The notes under the pieces were generated by a model. It saw nothing but the letters and a program-made list of their open reading frames with translations, made no database searches and was not told where the DNA came from. Below are positions 36,256-42,037 of a DNA stretch of 64,000 nt, piece by piece. The stretch is from Rhizobium sp. R635. Lineage in GTDB: Bacteria; Pseudomonadota; Alphaproteobacteria; Rhizobiales; Rhizobiaceae. The stretch spans positions 62,001 to 126,000 of the forward strand of contig NZ_LOKX01000002.1 in the NCBI RefSeq assembly GCF_002211285.1, given 5' to 3'. The stretch's first letter is position 1. Every line of letters begins with the position of its first letter. The position numbers and the translations under genes were made by a program.

Positions 36256-37128
36256 ATGACCGAGGAAATCAACACCGTCCTGCTTGCCGAAATCAAACGG
36301 CTGGCCGACGCGGTCGAGCGTCTTGCCGGACCGGCGCCAGCCGTCAACGACTGGGATGCCGCCGACTGTTTCGTCTGGGCGCCGCTGCGCCAGCATCTGC
36401 AGCCGGTCAAGCGGCCCAACCGGGTGGCGCTGAAGCTCATCCGCGGCGTCGATCACGTGCGCGATATCCTGCATGAGAATACGGTGCGTTTCGCCGAAGG
36501 CTATGCCGCCAACAACGTGCTGCTCTGGGGCGCGCGCGGCATGGGAAAATCCTCACTTGTCAAAGCCGTGCATGAGGATGTCAGGGGCGAAAGCGGTGTT
36601 GCGCTGAAGTTGGTGGAAGTTCATCGCGAGGATATAGCGAGCCTCCCCACCCTGCTCGATCTCCTGAAGGACACGCCCTACCGCGTCATCGTCTTCTGCG
36701 ACGACCTCTCCTTCGATCACGACGACACCGCTTACAAGTCGCTGAAGGCAGCGCTCGACGGCGGCGTCGAAGGACGGCCGGACAATGTGCTCTTTTACGC
36801 CACTTCAAACCGGCGCCATCTCCTGCCGCGCCACATGATGGAAAACGAGCAGTCGACGGCGATCAATCCGTCGGAGGCCGTGGAGGAGAAGGTTTCGCTG
36901 TCCGACCGCTTCGGCCTCTGGCTCGGCTTCCACAAATGCAGCCAGGAGGATTATCTTGGCATGATCGACGGCTATGCCGATCACTTCAAGCTCGGGCTCG
37001 AACGCGACAAGATGCATGCCGAGGCGCTGGAATGGGCGACGACGCGCGGCGCGCGCTCCGGCCGCGTCGCCTGGCAGTATATCCAGGACCTGGCCGGGCG
37101 CATGCGCGTCCATATCGACAGGGCCTGA
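36256..37128 (+). CDS. DUF815 family P-loop ATPase
   Basis: The 290-residue protein is an AAA-like ATPase of the DUF815 family. It carries a Walker A motif GARGMGKSSLVKA, a Walker B-like VIVFCDDLSF and sensor-like YATSNRRHLLPRHM, and shows the family's WAPLRQHLQPVKRPNRVALKLIRGVDHVRDIL. The ATG at 36256 is preferred over an ATG at 36196, which is not conserved. Function is unknown. It is divergent from yajC (205 bases), an arrangement seen in related genomes. Confidence 0.92.
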   Translation: MTEEINTVLLAEIKRLADAVERLAGPAPAVNDWDAADCFVWAPLRQHLQPVKRPNRVALKLIRGVDHVRDILHENTVRFAEGYAANNVLLWGARGMGKSSLVKAVHEDVRGESGVALKLVEVHREDIASLPTLLDLLKDTPYRVIVFCDDLSFDHDDTAYKSLKAALDGGVEGRPDNVLFYATSNRRHLLPRHMMENEQSTAINPSEAVEEKVSLSDRFGLWLGFHKCSQEDYLGMIDGYADHFKLGLERDKMHAEALEWATTRGARSGRVAWQYIQDLAGRMRVHIDRA

Positions 37129-37252
37129 AAGCCGAAGCGCGCCGCATGAACAAGGTTCGCTGCGACGCGCTTCAGCCGTACTCAAGGCCTCGGGCATTGC
37201 AAGCAACACCCGAAGGCCGGAATGATCAGCGTTTATTCAACGCCGCCATGTT

Positions 37253-40228
37253 TTACTCTCCCGCCGGTCCGTAGAGCGCAAGCCGCTCGAGAAGGACTCG
37301 CTGCCGGCCAGCGCTTTCGACCAGCAGACCGGTGTAGCGGTCGACGATCCGGTCGCGGTGGTTCGGGTCGGAGACGGCGGAGAGCGCGCCGATAATGGCC
37401 GCGACCTTTTCAGATGTCTGCCGCAATTCGTCGAGCAGTGCAGACTTGTCGCCGATCTCGCCCACCACTCGCTTCGTCACCTTGCCGATTCCGGCTGGCG
37501 TGCGCCCGCCTACCGAGACGTACCCCTCGGGCAGATCGCCCTTGAGATTGGTGACGGACTTGAAGCGGATGACATCGAAGATCTGGTCGACCGCCTGCTT
37601 GGCGCCGGTCACACGCGAGGGATGATCGGTATCGGCGGCGGCGTGCGGCAGCAGTTCCAGCTTGCCCTTGTGGCGCTCTTCGAGCGGCAGATAGGGCAGC
37701 ATCGGTCCGCTGAGCTTGCCCGTCGCGGCATCCTTGAAGAGGTCGGCGTCGATCGCTGCATGGGCGATCTTGCCGGAAGAAAGCGCTGCGTCGAGCGCAC
37801 CGGCATCGACGACTTCGCCGCGGTCGTAATTGACCAGCACGGCGCCGTCCTTCATGGCGCCGAGAACCTTCGCATCGACGGTGCCGGCATTGGAGTAGAT
37901 GCCGGTCGATGCGTCCAGCCGGCCGAGACCGATATGAACGGAGAGCACATCGGCACCGGTCGCTGCTTCGACGGGGCTTGCGGCATAGTCAAAACCTTCC
38001 GCCTGGATCCAGCGCTGGTGATGCTGGCGGGCGTAGATTGCCACCTTCATGCCGAAGGCCTTGGCGAGCTTGGCGACTTCGCGGCCGATATTGCCGTAGC
38101 CGAGGACGGCGATTTTCCGGCCCTCAAGCTTGGCGGTCGGGAAATCCTTGAGCTGGCGACCGGTATCGAAATCGCCACCGGCAACCATCTGATGCAGCCT
38201 GTCGACCGGCAGGTCGGGAACGACCTTGAGGATCGCCTTCACAGCCATCTGGGCGGTTGCCCGGCTGTTGATGCCGGGGGTGTTCATCAGCGGTGCCTCA
38301 CCGCCTTCGCCGTTGCCTCCGCCCCAGGAGGCCGAACCCATGTTGCCGGTTCCCGCGCCGATACGCACGCCGCCGAGCGAGAAGACGGAAGCCTTCGGGA
38401 TGAAGGTCGCCGCCGCGATCAAGGCGTCATACTGGCCCTTGTCCGTCTGCGGCAGGATTTCCGCCTCGGTGCTGAGATCGGGCTGATAGAAGAAATGGAT
38501 GAGGCCCTTCTCCAGCGCCGAACCGTCGCCGATCGGGCCGACATGGAAGACACCACCCTTTTCCTCGATGTAGGCCCGGATTTCGCTGTGGTCGGGCTTG
38601 CCGTCCGCGCCGAGGCGCAGGCCGACCAGATCGGCGATCAGCACCTTGTAGGCGCGTTGCGCATCGTCCTTGCGGACCGCTGTTCCGGCGTTGCCGGGTG
38701 CGTCAAACGTGACGCCCTCTTTCGCAAGTTCCTCTTCGAGAACGACGATCTTGGCTCTGAGATAGGCATATTGCAGGTTTTCCAACAGCGCCACGACATC
38801 TGCCGGCTCGCGGATGCCGCCGACCCAGGCACGGTAGTCGCCAGGCGTTCCCGGGAACGCATTGACGTAGCGCGCCGCGTCGAGACCGGGCTCGAATTCG
38901 CCGTTCGGATGGGTGATGCCCTCGTAGCCGAGCAACTGCTTCGAGCGCGCAATGATGCGGGCGTGGATGGCGGGATCGGTGATGTCGGCATCCTCGATCT
39001 TCAGAAGCGTCACCGCAGCACCGCGCCGCTCGGCATCGGTAACGGTCAGCGACAGCAGCGGATGCGACTTCACCCACTCGTCGATCACCGCCCGATTGGC
39101 GGCGGAGCGCCGGTTGAGCTCGACAACCGAGCCGACCCGCGCTTCTGACTGCAGCAGGCCAAACGTGGTCTCGGCAAAGGCGAGCGCGCTGTAGGTGTTG
39201 ATGACGCCGCCGAGCATACGGTCTTCCCCGGCATCGTAGAACGGCCCGGCATCCACGGAGCGTTTGGCTGAAAGCGGCTGGCGCGCATCGATCGGCGGCG
39301 CGATCTTCAGCTGGCGCGGGATCGCCCAGGCTGGGTCCTGCTGGTTCTTCTCGACAAGCGCCAGGGCATGCGGCGTGAAGGAGGCGACGAAATATCCGGA
39401 GATCCCACCGATCGCCTTCTGGAACGGCATGAACAGGCAGCATTTTGCCATTACCGCATCGACCAGCTCGGGCTCCCAGGGCATGGCGCCGAGCATCGAC
39501 GTGGCGTCGAATACCGCATGGTGGTTTGCCGGATCGCGGTCGATCCAGTTCAGCAGCTCGTGGATTTCGCGGCTCGTATACGCATTGGCGCCGGTGGTCT
39601 CGTGGCCGACGCCGACGAAGATCGACACGCCGAGATCGGAGAGCTCGGCCGCCGTCGGGATCACACCTTCGGAGGCAGCAAAATGGATACGGCTTTCGCA
39701 GCCTTTTTCGGCGAAGCGCTGCATCTCGATCAGCTGCGTGGCCCAGGACTGACGGAAGAAGCCGGCCGCCCGGGACGGATCGCTTTCCGGGCGCGGCGTA
39801 TCGACATAGACGCGCTGGTTGGCGTCGTTGGCATTCATCAGATGCTGGACGCAGACCGTATAGCCGCTGTGGCCGCCGCCGAGCCCCACCGCCATGCGGT
39901 TCGTCTTCGGGAAATGGAAGTAAGTGTGGATCGCCCGCATCATGTCGGTCAGGATTTTATCCGCCGGATAGCCGCGATGCATGCTGCGGGAAATCTCGGC
40001 GGTGGTGAATCCGCCGATATCGTTGCCCTTGTCGTCGAACTTGCGATAGGTCTTTTCGATCCAGGCATCGAAGGCGAGGCGCCGCAGCCGGCTGTCCACT
40101 TCGTCAGTGGTCGCATCCGTGATCGGGCCGACGCCGAAAAACGGGTTGGACGGCAGCTCAGGCGCACCCGAATTCGTCAGTCGGAGTGCTTCGAGACGCT
40201 GTTCCTGCATCTGGGCGATATTCGTCAT
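37253..40228 (-). CDS. Fusion of SerC-like class V aminotransferase and SerA-like 2-hydroxyacid dehydrogenase, 991 residues
   Basis: Residues 1 to about 490 look like a class V PLP aminotransferase: SGYTVCVQHL, FVGVGHETTGANAYTSREIHELL, the PLP-binding aspartate Asp241 (VFDATSMLGA) and the Schiff-base lysine Lys271 (PFQKAIGG). Residues about 520-990 look like a D-2-hydroxyacid dehydrogenase: NTPGINSRATAQMAVKAIL, the NAD motif GYGNIG (710-715), the catalytic arginine Arg803 (VNYDRGEVVD) and the catalytic histidine His862 (LLPHAAADTD). The catalytic glutamate region is divergent. In serine synthesis SerA and SerC act consecutively (3-phosphoglycerate to phosphohydroxypyruvate to phosphoserine), so the fusion would channel this intermediate, but the substrate may differ. 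The frame is continuous with no sign of error. Confidence 0.8.
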   Translation of the reverse strand: MTNIAQMQEQRLEALRLTNSGAPELPSNPFFGVGPITDATTDEVDSRLRRLAFDAWIEKTYRKFDDKGNDIGGFTTAEISRSMHRGYPADKILTDMMRAIHTYFHFPKTNRMAVGLGGGHSGYTVCVQHLMNANDANQRVYVDTPRPESDPSRAAGFFRQSWATQLIEMQRFAEKGCESRIHFAASEGVIPTAAELSDLGVSIFVGVGHETTGANAYTSREIHELLNWIDRDPANHHAVFDATSMLGAMPWEPELVDAVMAKCCLFMPFQKAIGGISGYFVASFTPHALALVEKNQQDPAWAIPRQLKIAPPIDARQPLSAKRSVDAGPFYDAGEDRMLGGVINTYSALAFAETTFGLLQSEARVGSVVELNRRSAANRAVIDEWVKSHPLLSLTVTDAERRGAAVTLLKIEDADITDPAIHARIIARSKQLLGYEGITHPNGEFEPGLDAARYVNAFPGTPGDYRAWVGGIREPADVVALLENLQYAYLRAKIVVLEEELAKEGVTFDAPGNAGTAVRKDDAQRAYKVLIADLVGLRLGADGKPDHSEIRAYIEEKGGVFHVGPIGDGSALEKGLIHFFYQPDLSTEAEILPQTDKGQYDALIAAATFIPKASVFSLGGVRIGAGTGNMGSASWGGGNGEGGEAPLMNTPGINSRATAQMAVKAILKVVPDLPVDRLHQMVAGGDFDTGRQLKDFPTAKLEGRKIAVLGYGNIGREVAKLAKAFGMKVAIYARQHHQRWIQAEGFDYAASPVEAATGADVLSVHIGLGRLDASTGIYSNAGTVDAKVLGAMKDGAVLVNYDRGEVVDAGALDAALSSGKIAHAAIDADLFKDAATGKLSGPMLPYLPLEERHKGKLELLPHAAADTDHPSRVTGAKQAVDQIFDVIRFKSVTNLKGDLPEGYVSVGGRTPAGIGKVTKRVVGEIGDKSALLDELRQTSEKVAAIIGALSAVSDPNHRDRIVDRYTGLLVESAGRQRVLLERLALYGPAGE

Positions 40229-40386
40229 GGGCTGCCTATCCGTTTTTAAAAAGGTCTAGGCATAGTGAATTGAACTTTTGGGAATGTAGACATCATATGC
40301 GCCGAACGTCAGGCAGAATGCGTCATCGGCCTCTTCCCAATGCCCGCAATGGGCGGATGCGACCGAAATTGCACTTCCCCAAATGA

Positions 40387-40415
40387 CAAAAGCCCGGCGG
40401 ATGGCCGGGCTTTTG
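40387..40415 (-). terminator. Rho-independent terminator of the NlpD-like gene
   Basis: A 12-base perfect stem, CAAAAGCCCGGC (40387-40398) with GCCGGGCTTTTG (40404-40415), lies 20 bases past the NlpD-like stop. A-rich and T-rich flanks make it potentially bidirectional. Confidence 0.85.
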
Positions 40416-40435
40416 CGCTTCCTGGTACGCTATAC

Positions 40436-42037
40436 CTACTCCAGGAAAGTCATCGGATTGACCGGGGACGCGTCCTTGCGCACCTCGAAATGGACCTGTG
40501 GCTGCTTGACGTCGCCGCTCATGCCGGAGACGGCGACGGTCTGGCCGCGCTGGATCTTCTGGCCGCGGGCAACGCTCAGCGTATCGGCATTGCCGTAGAC
40601 GGTGACGGTGCCGTCGTCGTGGCGGACGAGAACCGTATTGCCCAGTTCCTTCAAGCCGTTGCCGGCATAGATGACGACGCCGTTTTCGGCGGCCTTGATC
40701 GGCGTGCCCTGCGGCACCGAGATATCGATGCCGTCATTGCGGTTGCCGTTGACGTTGGCGCCATAGGCGGCAATCACCTGGCCGCGGACCGGCCAGCGGT
40801 ATTTGCCGATGCCGGTCGATTCCGGGGCCGCGGAGCTCACGTCAGACTTCTTCTCGACATCGTCGACGGTCTGGGTGGCAGCCGGAGCCTTGTAAGGCGC
40901 GGGCTGAACGGAAGCCGTCTCCTGCTGGGCAGGCGTTGGCTGAGCCGGCTTCGCATCAACCTTCCCAGCCGGGATCGAAGCGGTCTTCATATTGTCGGCT
41001 GTGGCCGTCGGAATCTTCAGAGCCTGGCCGACGCGAAGCGAATTGGCCGACAGATTGTTGGCAGCCTTGAGATCATCGATATTGGTGCCGGTCGCCTTGG
41101 CGATCCTTGCCAGCGAATCCCCCTGCTTGACGACATAGCTGCCGGCAGGCGCCTTCGGATCCTTGCCGGCGCCGGCTGGAATCTTGCCGGTCGGATCGGC
41201 GCTCGCCATGGTCTTGTCGCGGGCGGAATTGGCGCCGGGAACGACGGCGACCTTCTGCTCCGGCGCCTTGGCAGGCTCCGGCATCTGGCCGGGCTTGGAA
41301 AGATCGGCTGCCTGCGACGCCGCCTTGGCGGCATTGCCGCCGTTGAGGGTCGGTATCAGGATCGCCTGACCAGGCTGGGCGGCAGATGCCGTCTTCAAGC
41401 CGTTGACGCGCAGGATTTCCTTTTCCGGAACACCGTAGCGTCTGGCGAGAGTAGCTGTGCTTTCACCCGGACGCAGCGTCACGGACGGGGCGTTTGTCCC
41501 CGACCAGCCGGAAACCTTCGGCGTCGTGCCCGTCGTCAGAGTATCAGGCGTTCCTTTCGGAGCGGCCGGAGCCACGAGGCGATGCTTTTCGGGCTGCGGA
41601 GAAGCCGGGAAAGGCTGGGCGAGCGCCACTTCCTTCTCCCGCTGGCGGGACGGCGCAACAGCCGTCGGGGCAGCAAGCTCGGACCGCTGCACCGAGACCG
41701 GCGCGGAAGCCATCCGTGCGCTTGAGTTCGACGTACGGATCGGATCGTAGCTCGGACGTGATGGATAAGACTGGCTCATCGCATCATTGCCGCCACCATA
41801 GCCCGGCTGGCTCGCAACGGCGGAGCCGCCGAGATCGGCGCGCGGCACCGGATCGCCCTGCGAGCCGCCGCTGCGCGGAATGGAACTGGTGGTGATCTGA
41901 TCCTGCCCTGAGGAGGAAAACAAGCCGCCAAACCGTGTCACATCGGAACTGCAGCCTGTTGCGGCACTTGCAAGCAAGCCAACAACCAGAAGATTACTGG
42001 CCGACTTCCCGAACTTCGGCGAAAGACTGAAACGCAT
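40436..42037 (-). CDS. NlpD-like LysM lipoprotein with degenerate M23 peptidase domain
   Basis: The 533-residue protein has a lipoprotein signal peptide with the lipobox ending at Cys29 (ASAATGC), a long Ser/Pro-rich region, two LysM peptidoglycan-binding repeats (near 175-220 and 290-335; the second reads YVVKQGDSLARIAKATGTN) and a C-terminal LytM/M23 domain. In that domain the first zinc motif H-x3-D is NDGIDIS, with Asn replacing the histidine, and the later HxH motif is VHF; so it is probably not a peptidase but an amidase activator like NlpD or EnvC in cell division. It closes the surE-pcm neighbourhood, as nlpD does in many proteobacteria, but here a palindromic element separates them. 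Confidence 0.9.
   Translation of the reverse strand: MRFSLSPKFGKSASNLLVVGLLASAATGCSSDVTRFGGLFSSSGQDQITTSSIPRSGGSQGDPVPRADLGGSAVASQPGYGGGNDAMSQSYPSRPSYDPIRTSNSSARMASAPVSVQRSELAAPTAVAPSRQREKEVALAQPFPASPQPEKHRLVAPAAPKGTPDTLTTGTTPKVSGWSGTNAPSVTLRPGESTATLARRYGVPEKEILRVNGLKTASAAQPGQAILIPTLNGGNAAKAASQAADLSKPGQMPEPAKAPEQKVAVVPGANSARDKTMASADPTGKIPAGAGKDPKAPAGSYVVKQGDSLARIAKATGTNIDDLKAANNLSANSLRVGQALKIPTATADNMKTASIPAGKVDAKPAQPTPAQQETASVQPAPYKAPAATQTVDDVEKKSDVSSAAPESTGIGKYRWPVRGQVIAAYGANVNGNRNDGIDISVPQGTPIKAAENGVVIYAGNGLKELGNTVLVRHDDGTVTVYGNADTLSVARGQKIQRGQTVAVSGMSGDVKQPQVHFEVRKDASPVNPMTFLE

Follow-up and report, generated by a model that had tools for sequence, protein, structure and literature searches.

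A SerC-like aminotransferase fused to a SerA-like dehydrogenase in rhizobia and other bacteria: a proposed route from L-serine to D-glycerate

Introduction

From the point of view of domain architecture, the closest described counterparts of the gene analysed here are the bifunctional proteins of oomycetes, brown algae and Thecamonas in which phosphoglycerate dehydrogenase (PGDH) and phosphoserine aminotransferase (PSAT) are joined with the dehydrogenase first (PMC5715807), the oomycete fusion also being reported in PMC2705460. The legend to Fig. 8 of PMC5715807 gives the order as PGDH N-terminal and PSAT C-terminal, and the same source places all stramenopile PSATs in the serC_2 type (TIGR01365). 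Our gene lies in a 64,000-nucleotide stretch of Rhizobium sp. R635 (contig NZ_LOKX01000002.1, positions 62,001 to 126,000; hereafter the window) and encodes a 991-residue fusion of a SerC-related aminotransferase with a D-2-hydroxyacid dehydrogenase. Like the eukaryotic proteins, it joins a 2-hydroxyacid dehydrogenase to an aminotransferase, which is here nearest to the serC_2 type. Unlike them, it has the opposite domain order, and whereas both parts of the eukaryotic fusion are placed in the phosphorylated serine pathway, with no further PSAT gene in P. infestans, the bacterial halves fail the SerC and PGDH cut-offs, and a full serA and serC are present besides.

A second system with which the gene can be compared is the serine cycle, in whose order serine-glyoxylate aminotransferase (Sga), hydroxypyruvate reductase (Hpr) and glycerate kinase (Gck) follow each other as separate enzymes (PMC2948502). 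The fusion shares with the Methylobacterium cycle the same two proposed consecutive reactions, the proximity, in some hosts, of genes for malate thiokinase (Mtk) and malyl-CoA lyase (Mcl), and a glycerate kinase as the next step; in Methylobacterium, however, the enzymes are separate, and a comparison of the N-terminal half of the fusion with one SgaA-type protein gave no sequence match. Among the matches listed in the open-access (PMC) literature there is no report on the bacterial fusion family, and the annotated plasmid records examined call it only “NAD(P)-dependent oxidoreductase” or leave it without a name. An initial annotation of this DNA had regarded the architecture as untypical; this agrees with the bacterial plasmid records, but does not hold in general, given the eukaryotic fusions of opposite order.

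We propose, with a probability of roughly 0.57, that the fusion is a bifunctional enzyme moving carbon from L-serine to D-glycerate, towards glycolysis. The folds, the invariant catalytic residues and the gene linkages were computed; the substrates, the direction and the cofactor are what we infer.

Architecture and conservation of the fusion

The gene and its main parts are the following:

37253..40228, minus strand: whole fusion gene, 991 residues, stop codon included; same architecture in related loci
38744..40228, minus strand: N-terminal half, residues 1-495, fold-type I pyridoxal phosphate (PLP) aminotransferase nearest to the serC_2 type (fold match, NCBIfam, hhalign)
37529..38665, minus strand: C-terminal half, residues 522-900, D-2-hydroxyacid dehydrogenase (Pfam, fold match, hhalign)
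37256..37528, minus strand: C-terminal tail, residues 901-991, mainly helical and without an ACT domain match (Pfam scan, AlphaFold2 model)

The open reading frame (ORF) is a single uninterrupted frame of 991 codons with no internal stops. Its coordinates agree with the initial annotation, to which the minus strand is to be added. Relatives were taken as the best 80 out of 176 related stretches, and since 78 of these 80 give a near-full-length match (starting at or before residue 7 and ending at or after residue 986), the fusion is not a product of chance; the remaining two (L045 and L097) start at a contig end.

That SerC-like and SerA-like folds coexist in one protein, as had been claimed, is borne out by domain search, profile comparison and AlphaFold2 fold matches, and both halves keep their fold in the structure prediction. 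The model was built from 32 sequences and has a mean predicted local distance difference test score (pLDDT) of 79.8 and a predicted template modelling score (pTM) of 0.60. The list of fold matches is mostly occupied by one domain, and absences from it carry no meaning; rows less than 1 apart in Z are ties, and fold therefore cannot pick the substrate. The predicted catalytic residues (Lys271, Asp241, the glycines 710, 712 and 715 of GxGxxG, Arg803 and His862) all stand where the initial annotation had placed them and are identical in 32 of 32 aligned relatives. Its further statements, namely that two consecutive reaction steps are joined in reversed domain order and that the substrate may be new, are upheld here as well.

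Linkage to glycerate 2-kinase and the proposed reactions

Among three neighbour linkages, that to glycerate 2-kinase is the strongest. Relatives of the C-terminal half, 50-74% identical to it, also occur as stand-alone dehydrogenases. On Aminobacter and Paracoccus plasmids (L102 and L139, of the same cluster) a glycerate 2-kinase (DUF4147 + MOFRL) lies directly downstream of such a gene, and in Pseudochrobactrum algeriensis and Pseudochrobactrum sp. XF203 dehydrogenase and glycerate 2-kinase form one frame of about 830 codons (L101:8986-11466 and L144:4013-6469). With regard to the fusion itself, a glycerate kinase frame starts just past the stop of the full-length gene in L038, and a broken kinase remnant is found at the same place in L032; in the window's genome a glycerate 2-kinase gene lies about 32 kb from the fusion.

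Because the dehydrogenase is joined to a glycerate kinase, its simplest product would be glycerate, from which it follows that the 2-oxo substrate would be hydroxypyruvate and the amino acid handled by the fused aminotransferase serine. Accepting this, the N-terminal half would convert L-serine and a 2-oxo acid (glyoxylate or pyruvate) into hydroxypyruvate and an amino acid, the C-terminal half, as a separate subfamily of D-2-hydroxyacid dehydrogenases, would reduce hydroxypyruvate to D-glycerate, probably with NADPH, and a separate glycerate 2-kinase would turn D-glycerate and ATP into 2-phosphoglycerate. Where the host also has malate thiokinase and malyl-CoA lyase, these would amount to two steps of the serine cycle; in hosts without them, such as the one that carries the window, they would form a serine-to-glycerate bypass. 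It is the linkage and fusion of its family with glycerate 2-kinase that points to a hydroxypyruvate-reductase role for the C-terminal half. Any direct transfer of hydroxypyruvate between the two halves would be speculative.

Of the Pseudochrobactrum frame, only the kinase part is entered in the record's deliberately incomplete gene table. Furthermore, in five metagenome-assembled genomes (MAGs), three of them titled SAR324, one Deltaproteobacteria and one Nitrosomonas, a gene with a product of about 436-474 residues lies downstream of the fusion (L089:6269-7576, L092:3989-5410, L093:3152-4567, L094:4514-5821 and L097:3037-4344), at a distance of 45-160 bp in L089, L092 and L093. A Pfam scan of the protein from L089 and L092 gave nothing above cut-off, and its AlphaFold2 model is poor (mean pLDDT 45.5). 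Most of the five carry HNEVKPANVG followed by FDFDN, which we take to resemble the active-site motifs of aminoglycoside-phosphotransferase-like kinases, and the protein could be an unrecognised glycerate kinase.

The aminotransferase half

The residues that define this half are as follows:

39416..39418, minus strand: Lys271, the PLP lysine, next after Gln270; lines up with the lysine of the SerC encoded in this genome; invariant (32 of 32)
39506..39508, minus strand: Asp241, the PLP aspartate (hhalign with the SerC encoded in this genome); invariant (32 of 32)
39974..39979, minus strand: His84-Arg85, aligned with the phosphate-site His-Arg pair of PSAT; identical in 32 of 32

A Pfam scan of the N-terminal half found nothing above cut-off, and a PDB search with its profile returned only two chance matches (E 0.3 and 0.36). 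In NCBIfam, its match to the phosphoserine transaminase model NF002841 (E 5.9e-16) stays below the curated cut-off, the two phosphoserine-transaminase models scoring 58 and 40 bits against cut-offs of 477 and 448; for serC_2 (TIGR01365) the fusion gives 39.9 bits, and the equivalog cut-off of 448.2 is not reached. By profile comparison with hhalign, the relationship to the genome's own SerC is evident (96.8% probability, E 2.7e-10, 373 columns, 25% identity), whereas the same comparison with one SgaA-type serine-glyoxylate aminotransferase gives no match (0.7% probability, 21 columns). Judged by these two comparisons, the N-terminal half is thus kin of SerC and not of SgaA. On the SgaA comparison, an SgaA-type identity is rejected by sequence, the fold nonetheless being common to both: residues 21-492 of the AlphaFold2 model match M. 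tuberculosis SerC (2fyf: Z 25.4, root-mean-square deviation (rmsd) 3.0, 348 aligned, 18% identity), and the half likewise matches human alanine-glyoxylate aminotransferase (5ofy: Z 24.0, rmsd 3.2, 343 aligned, 13% identity).

The SerC fold with the PLP lysine, the PLP aspartate and the glutamine preceding the lysine is present in full. Gly34-Pro35, His84-Arg85, Trp162, Asp241, Gln270-Lys271, Thr345 and Arg466 are identical in all 32 fusions and line up by hhalign with their counterparts in the genome's own SerC. The phosphate site of PSAT consists of His45-Arg46 (yeast numbering), and another His-Arg pair is described as contributing to phosphoserine binding as well (PMC10049462). The first of these basic pairs is kept in the fusion as His84-Arg85 (32/32); the second, C-terminal one has no clear match in the hhalign alignment. 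Compared with serC_2 proteins, the half shares the fold, the PLP residues and one His-Arg pair, but differs in its score (40 bits against a cut-off of 448), and the second basic pair has no clear counterpart.

The dehydrogenase half

The relevant positions in the second half of the protein are these:

38084..38101, minus strand: NAD(P)-binding GYGNIG, residues 710-715 (Pfam domain; 32-row alignment)
38027..38032, minus strand: Ala733-Arg734, at the place of the NAD-type Asp of the genome's own PGDH (hhalign and alignments)
37820..37822, minus strand: catalytic Arg803 (hhalign; identical in 32 of 32)
37643..37645, minus strand: catalytic His862 (hhalign; identical in 32 of 32)
37742..37750, minus strand: Asp827-Ala828-Asp829, two-residue insertion in the segment of the PGDH catalytic Glu; Asp829 invariant (hhalign, alignments)

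The half matches Pfam 2-Hacid_dh_C (PF02826) with 98 bits (cut-off 25.1), with GxGxxG and the catalytic arginine and histidine present. A C-terminal ACT domain is a feature of SerA; in the fusion, Pfam gives no match to one at E 0.1. Beyond the superfamily, the assignment is less clear-cut. The fusion reaches neither the cut-off of 454 of phosphoglycerate dehydrogenase TIGR01327 (71.5 and 73.8 bits in two scans) nor the equivalog cut-off of 455 of glyoxylate reductase PRK13243 (72.2 bits), and residues 525-905 of the model match Entamoeba phosphoglycerate dehydrogenase (4njo: Z 26.3, rmsd 2.7, 289 aligned) and Pyrococcus glyoxylate/hydroxypyruvate reductase (5aov: Z 25.9, rmsd 3.9, 304 aligned, 22% identity in the aligned part). 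By hhalign, the genome's own SerA and its own glyoxylate-reductase-like protein score alike (98.7% each, with E 1.9e-16 and 3.2e-16), and overall similarity was dropped as an arbiter of the substrate.

The IRS-motif arginine of PGDH binds phosphate; here the alignment puts Ala605 at its place, and every row of two alignments (25 of 25 and 32 of 32) has A, V or T in this column. Within the superfamily, use of NAD is associated with an aspartate, and use of NADP with an arginine, where the second Rossmann strand ends. The NAD-type aspartate of PGDH is replaced by Ala-Arg in 25 of 25 rows, the same Ala-Arg being carried by the genome's own glyoxylate-reductase-like protein, and glyoxylate reductase 3wnv has an arginine at this strand end; Ala733-Arg734 suggests that the cofactor is NADP(H). 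As regards the catalytic glutamate of the Arg-Glu-His set, whose region the initial annotation had rightly called divergent, Ala834 stands at the aligned place, in an unconserved column with A, P, Q, S, D, E or L (E in one of 25), and hhalign reveals a two-residue insertion in the segment, whose invariant Asp829 may substitute for the glutamate. Compared with the glyoxylate/hydroxypyruvate reductases (5aov, 3wnv), the half shows the same fold and, as in 3wnv, the arginine ending the second Rossmann strand, but is set apart by the unconserved Glu column, the Asp-Ala-Asp insertion and the long helical tail.

Serine-cycle and betaine-type genes near the fusion

In eight Sinorhizobium/Ensifer loci, sgaA-mcl-mtkA-mtkB lie upstream of the fusion (sgaA is cut by the locus end in five), and a ninth (L040) has mtkA-mtkB; these loci are counted as one lineage. 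Outside of it, a deltaproteobacterial MAG (L089) carries mcl-mtkA-mtkB divergent to the fusion, and its MtkA reaches 690 bits with the malate-CoA ligase model, over the cut-off of 604. Within the window's order, 17 of 29 genomes with the fusion have an Mcl-type gene, compared with 81 of the 368 others (Fisher p 5e-5, kinship ignored). Three Mcl-bearing MAGs, namely G769 (L089), G772 (L092) and G757 (L066), are among the seven fusion genomes in which no SgaA-type gene was found at E 1e-25.

The third linkage is to betaine-type genes. In Sinorhizobium/Ensifer loci, as in L088, a BCCT-family transporter gene is close to the fusion; Paracoccus aminovorans (L100) has a dimethylglycine-dehydrogenase-like gene (DAO + GCV_T) upstream of its fusion gene. 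GlxA/GbdR-type regulators control betaine metabolism; by eye, genes resembling such AraC regulators stand near the fusion at L055:12280-13308 and L070:4725-5696. A Pfam scan of 133 flanking ORFs (140-620 residues, at most three per side, 32 representative loci, L038 not among them) found DJ-1_PfpI domains in three and AraC-type domains in three.

On two Shinella plasmids (L140:10894-19348 and L143:16932-19191), a few genes separate a stand-alone dehydrogenase gene from a carbon-phosphorus (C-P) lyase (phn) operon.

Distribution and genomic position

By record title, hosts of the fusion comprise Rhizobium, Sinorhizobium/Ensifer, Mesorhizobium, Shinella, Paracoccus, Labrys, Kiloniella and others, as well as MAGs titled SAR324, Deltaproteobacteria, Gammaproteobacteria and Nitrosomonas. 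In a survey of 397 genomes of the order, in which two candidates were scored per genome and further copies may have been missed, both halves share one frame (some incomplete) in 28 genomes and lie on two contigs in one more; the dehydrogenase half is found alone in nine others (one with an internal TGA) and as a fragment in one. In a phylum-wide sample of 398 genomes, eight gave matches; none of the eight lies outside the window's own family, and four carry the fusion. The N-terminal half was surveyed in 297 order genomes, with at most five candidates scored in each. Of its 27 matches at E 1e-8, only one, at the edge of a contig, is not in a frame of at least 839 residues, and a free-standing N-terminal half was rejected.

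Plasmid records (n = 58) include 31 with most of the fusion, three with a shortened N-terminal part and 24 with the dehydrogenase part, ten of which were fetched. Ensifer adhaerens plasmid p1 (L146:3998-5746) has a shortened frame of 582 residues, in which the aminotransferase half is followed by no more than the beginning of the dehydrogenase; two more plasmid records hold a similar partial match.

Annotation by eye places nlpD on one side of the fusion in the window and a DUF815 ATPase gene on the other (37128-40436), an arrangement repeated in R. esperanzae (L019). In all 15 other congeners whose locus was retrieved (L148-L162), these two genes are adjacent and the fusion is absent from the site; in R. 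johnstonii 3841 the fusion gene is on plasmid pRL9. The fusion is hence an accessory gene, and it probably moves horizontally. In a tree of the dehydrogenase halves (66 rows, 46 of the 97 fused frames of the picked locus set, quick method, very long outgroup), some stand-alone copies are basal and others nested in fused ones, with at least four label changes, so that fusion followed by losses of the N-terminal half is likely, the root being unsure.

Alternative explanations

Several observations weigh against a serine-to-glycerate role. First, the N-terminal half is SerC-like by sequence and retains the PSAT phosphate-site pair in 32 of 32, which leaves phosphoserine as a possible substrate. 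The top NCBIfam model for the C-terminal half is PGDH (73.5 bits), although tied with 2-hydroxyacid dehydrogenase (72.8) and glyoxylate reductase (72.2), and the Ala-Arg sign is not exclusive, as PDB chain 3gg9, named PGDH, also has an arginine there. Secondly, the serine-cycle context is uneven. The window holds no recognised metabolic neighbour of the fusion gene, and its genome has an SgaA/BhcA-like gene (632 bits, just below the BhcA cut-off of 650) and no Mcl found at E 1e-80. With a permissive threshold of E 1e-25, which admits distant class V paralogues, 21 of 28 fusion genomes have an SgaA-type gene, and a separate sgaA lies inside the very Sinorhizobium cluster that holds the fusion; where SgaA is present, the N-terminal half would be redundant unless another amino acceptor is used. 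Thirdly, linkage is sparse. Only three of 19 distinct stand-alone dehydrogenase genes (L144 excluded) have the kinase adjacent or fused, L125 having it about 7 kb off and 15 of the 19 lacking it in the fetched stretch, while for the fusion itself the linkage amounts to L038 and one remnant. No Pfam family occurs in more than four of the 133 flanking ORFs, and besides the fusion only four ORF clusters recur in at least three of the 32 representative loci, as counted with a simple ORF caller that recovered the fusion frame in 74 of the 80 loci and takes antisense frames for genes, so that it undercounts. Most of the fusion neighbourhoods covered share no partner gene.

The alternative that survives best, although we regard it as unlikely, is a different triplet of amino acid, 2-oxo acid and D-hydroxy acid, for instance one built on a serine analogue with a phosphonate or sulfonate group, or one that belongs to vitamin B6 or betaine metabolism. 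The unusual but strongly conserved substrate region and catalytic-Glu segment would fit it, as would the retained PSAT-type His-Arg pair and the dehydrogenase gene near the C-P lyase operon in Shinella; it leaves the in-frame joining of dehydrogenase and glycerate kinase unexplained.

Distinctly unlikely, in our estimation, is a SerC-SerA fusion proper, a second copy of the phosphorylated pathway leading from 3-phosphoglycerate over phosphohydroxypyruvate to phosphoserine, perhaps free of serine feedback in the absence of an ACT domain. The N-terminal half being nearest to serC_2 with His84-Arg85 kept, the tied PGDH model, the PGDH fold match at Z 26.3 and the existence of oomycete PGDH-PSAT fusions all speak for it. 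Yet a check that the initial annotation had called for, the presence of separate genes, shows a full serC (705 bits, cut-off 448) adjoining a full serA (674 bits, cut-off 454) on contig C13 of the same genome, the same models giving 40 and 74 bits on the fusion. Moreover, the aligned phosphate-site arginine and NAD-type aspartate of PGDH are lost, and the dehydrogenase family lies beside or is fused with glycerate 2-kinase in some relatives, which counts against this pathway because a 3-phosphoglycerate product would need no such kinase. On these grounds the plain SerA-SerC assignment was demoted, and the role in the phosphorylated pathway that the initial annotation had considered is unsupported.

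The reverse direction, from D-glycerate over hydroxypyruvate to L-serine as a non-phosphorylated serine route, is in our view improbable: both reactions are reversible in principle and the glycerate linkage is direction-neutral, but kinase partners would drain glycerate, and the NADP(H)-type site and serine-cycle neighbours favour reduction.

Significance

The proposal that the fusion leads from L-serine to D-glycerate offers a testable function for a conserved protein of about 990 residues to which the annotated plasmid records examined give no informative name. In a more detailed version, which we advance tentatively and hold at rather less than even odds, a SerC relative would have been recruited as an L-serine transaminase and joined to an undescribed, probably NADPH-dependent subfamily of hydroxypyruvate reductases, forming a mobile single-gene module in which hydroxypyruvate is handed over, and which would make up two steps of a variant of the serine cycle fed by betaine, sarcosine or glycine. 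If the proposed function is true, the gene would be a third joining of neighbours in the serine and glycerate routes, besides the eukaryotic PGDH-PSAT proteins and the Pseudochrobactrum dehydrogenase-kinase frame, and a two-in-one enzyme for the engineering of one-carbon assimilation. A single gene could then carry two central steps of the serine cycle between rhizobia, Paracoccus, Kiloniella and SAR324 bacteria, with a bearing on how methyl groups and glycine are assimilated in the host bacteria.

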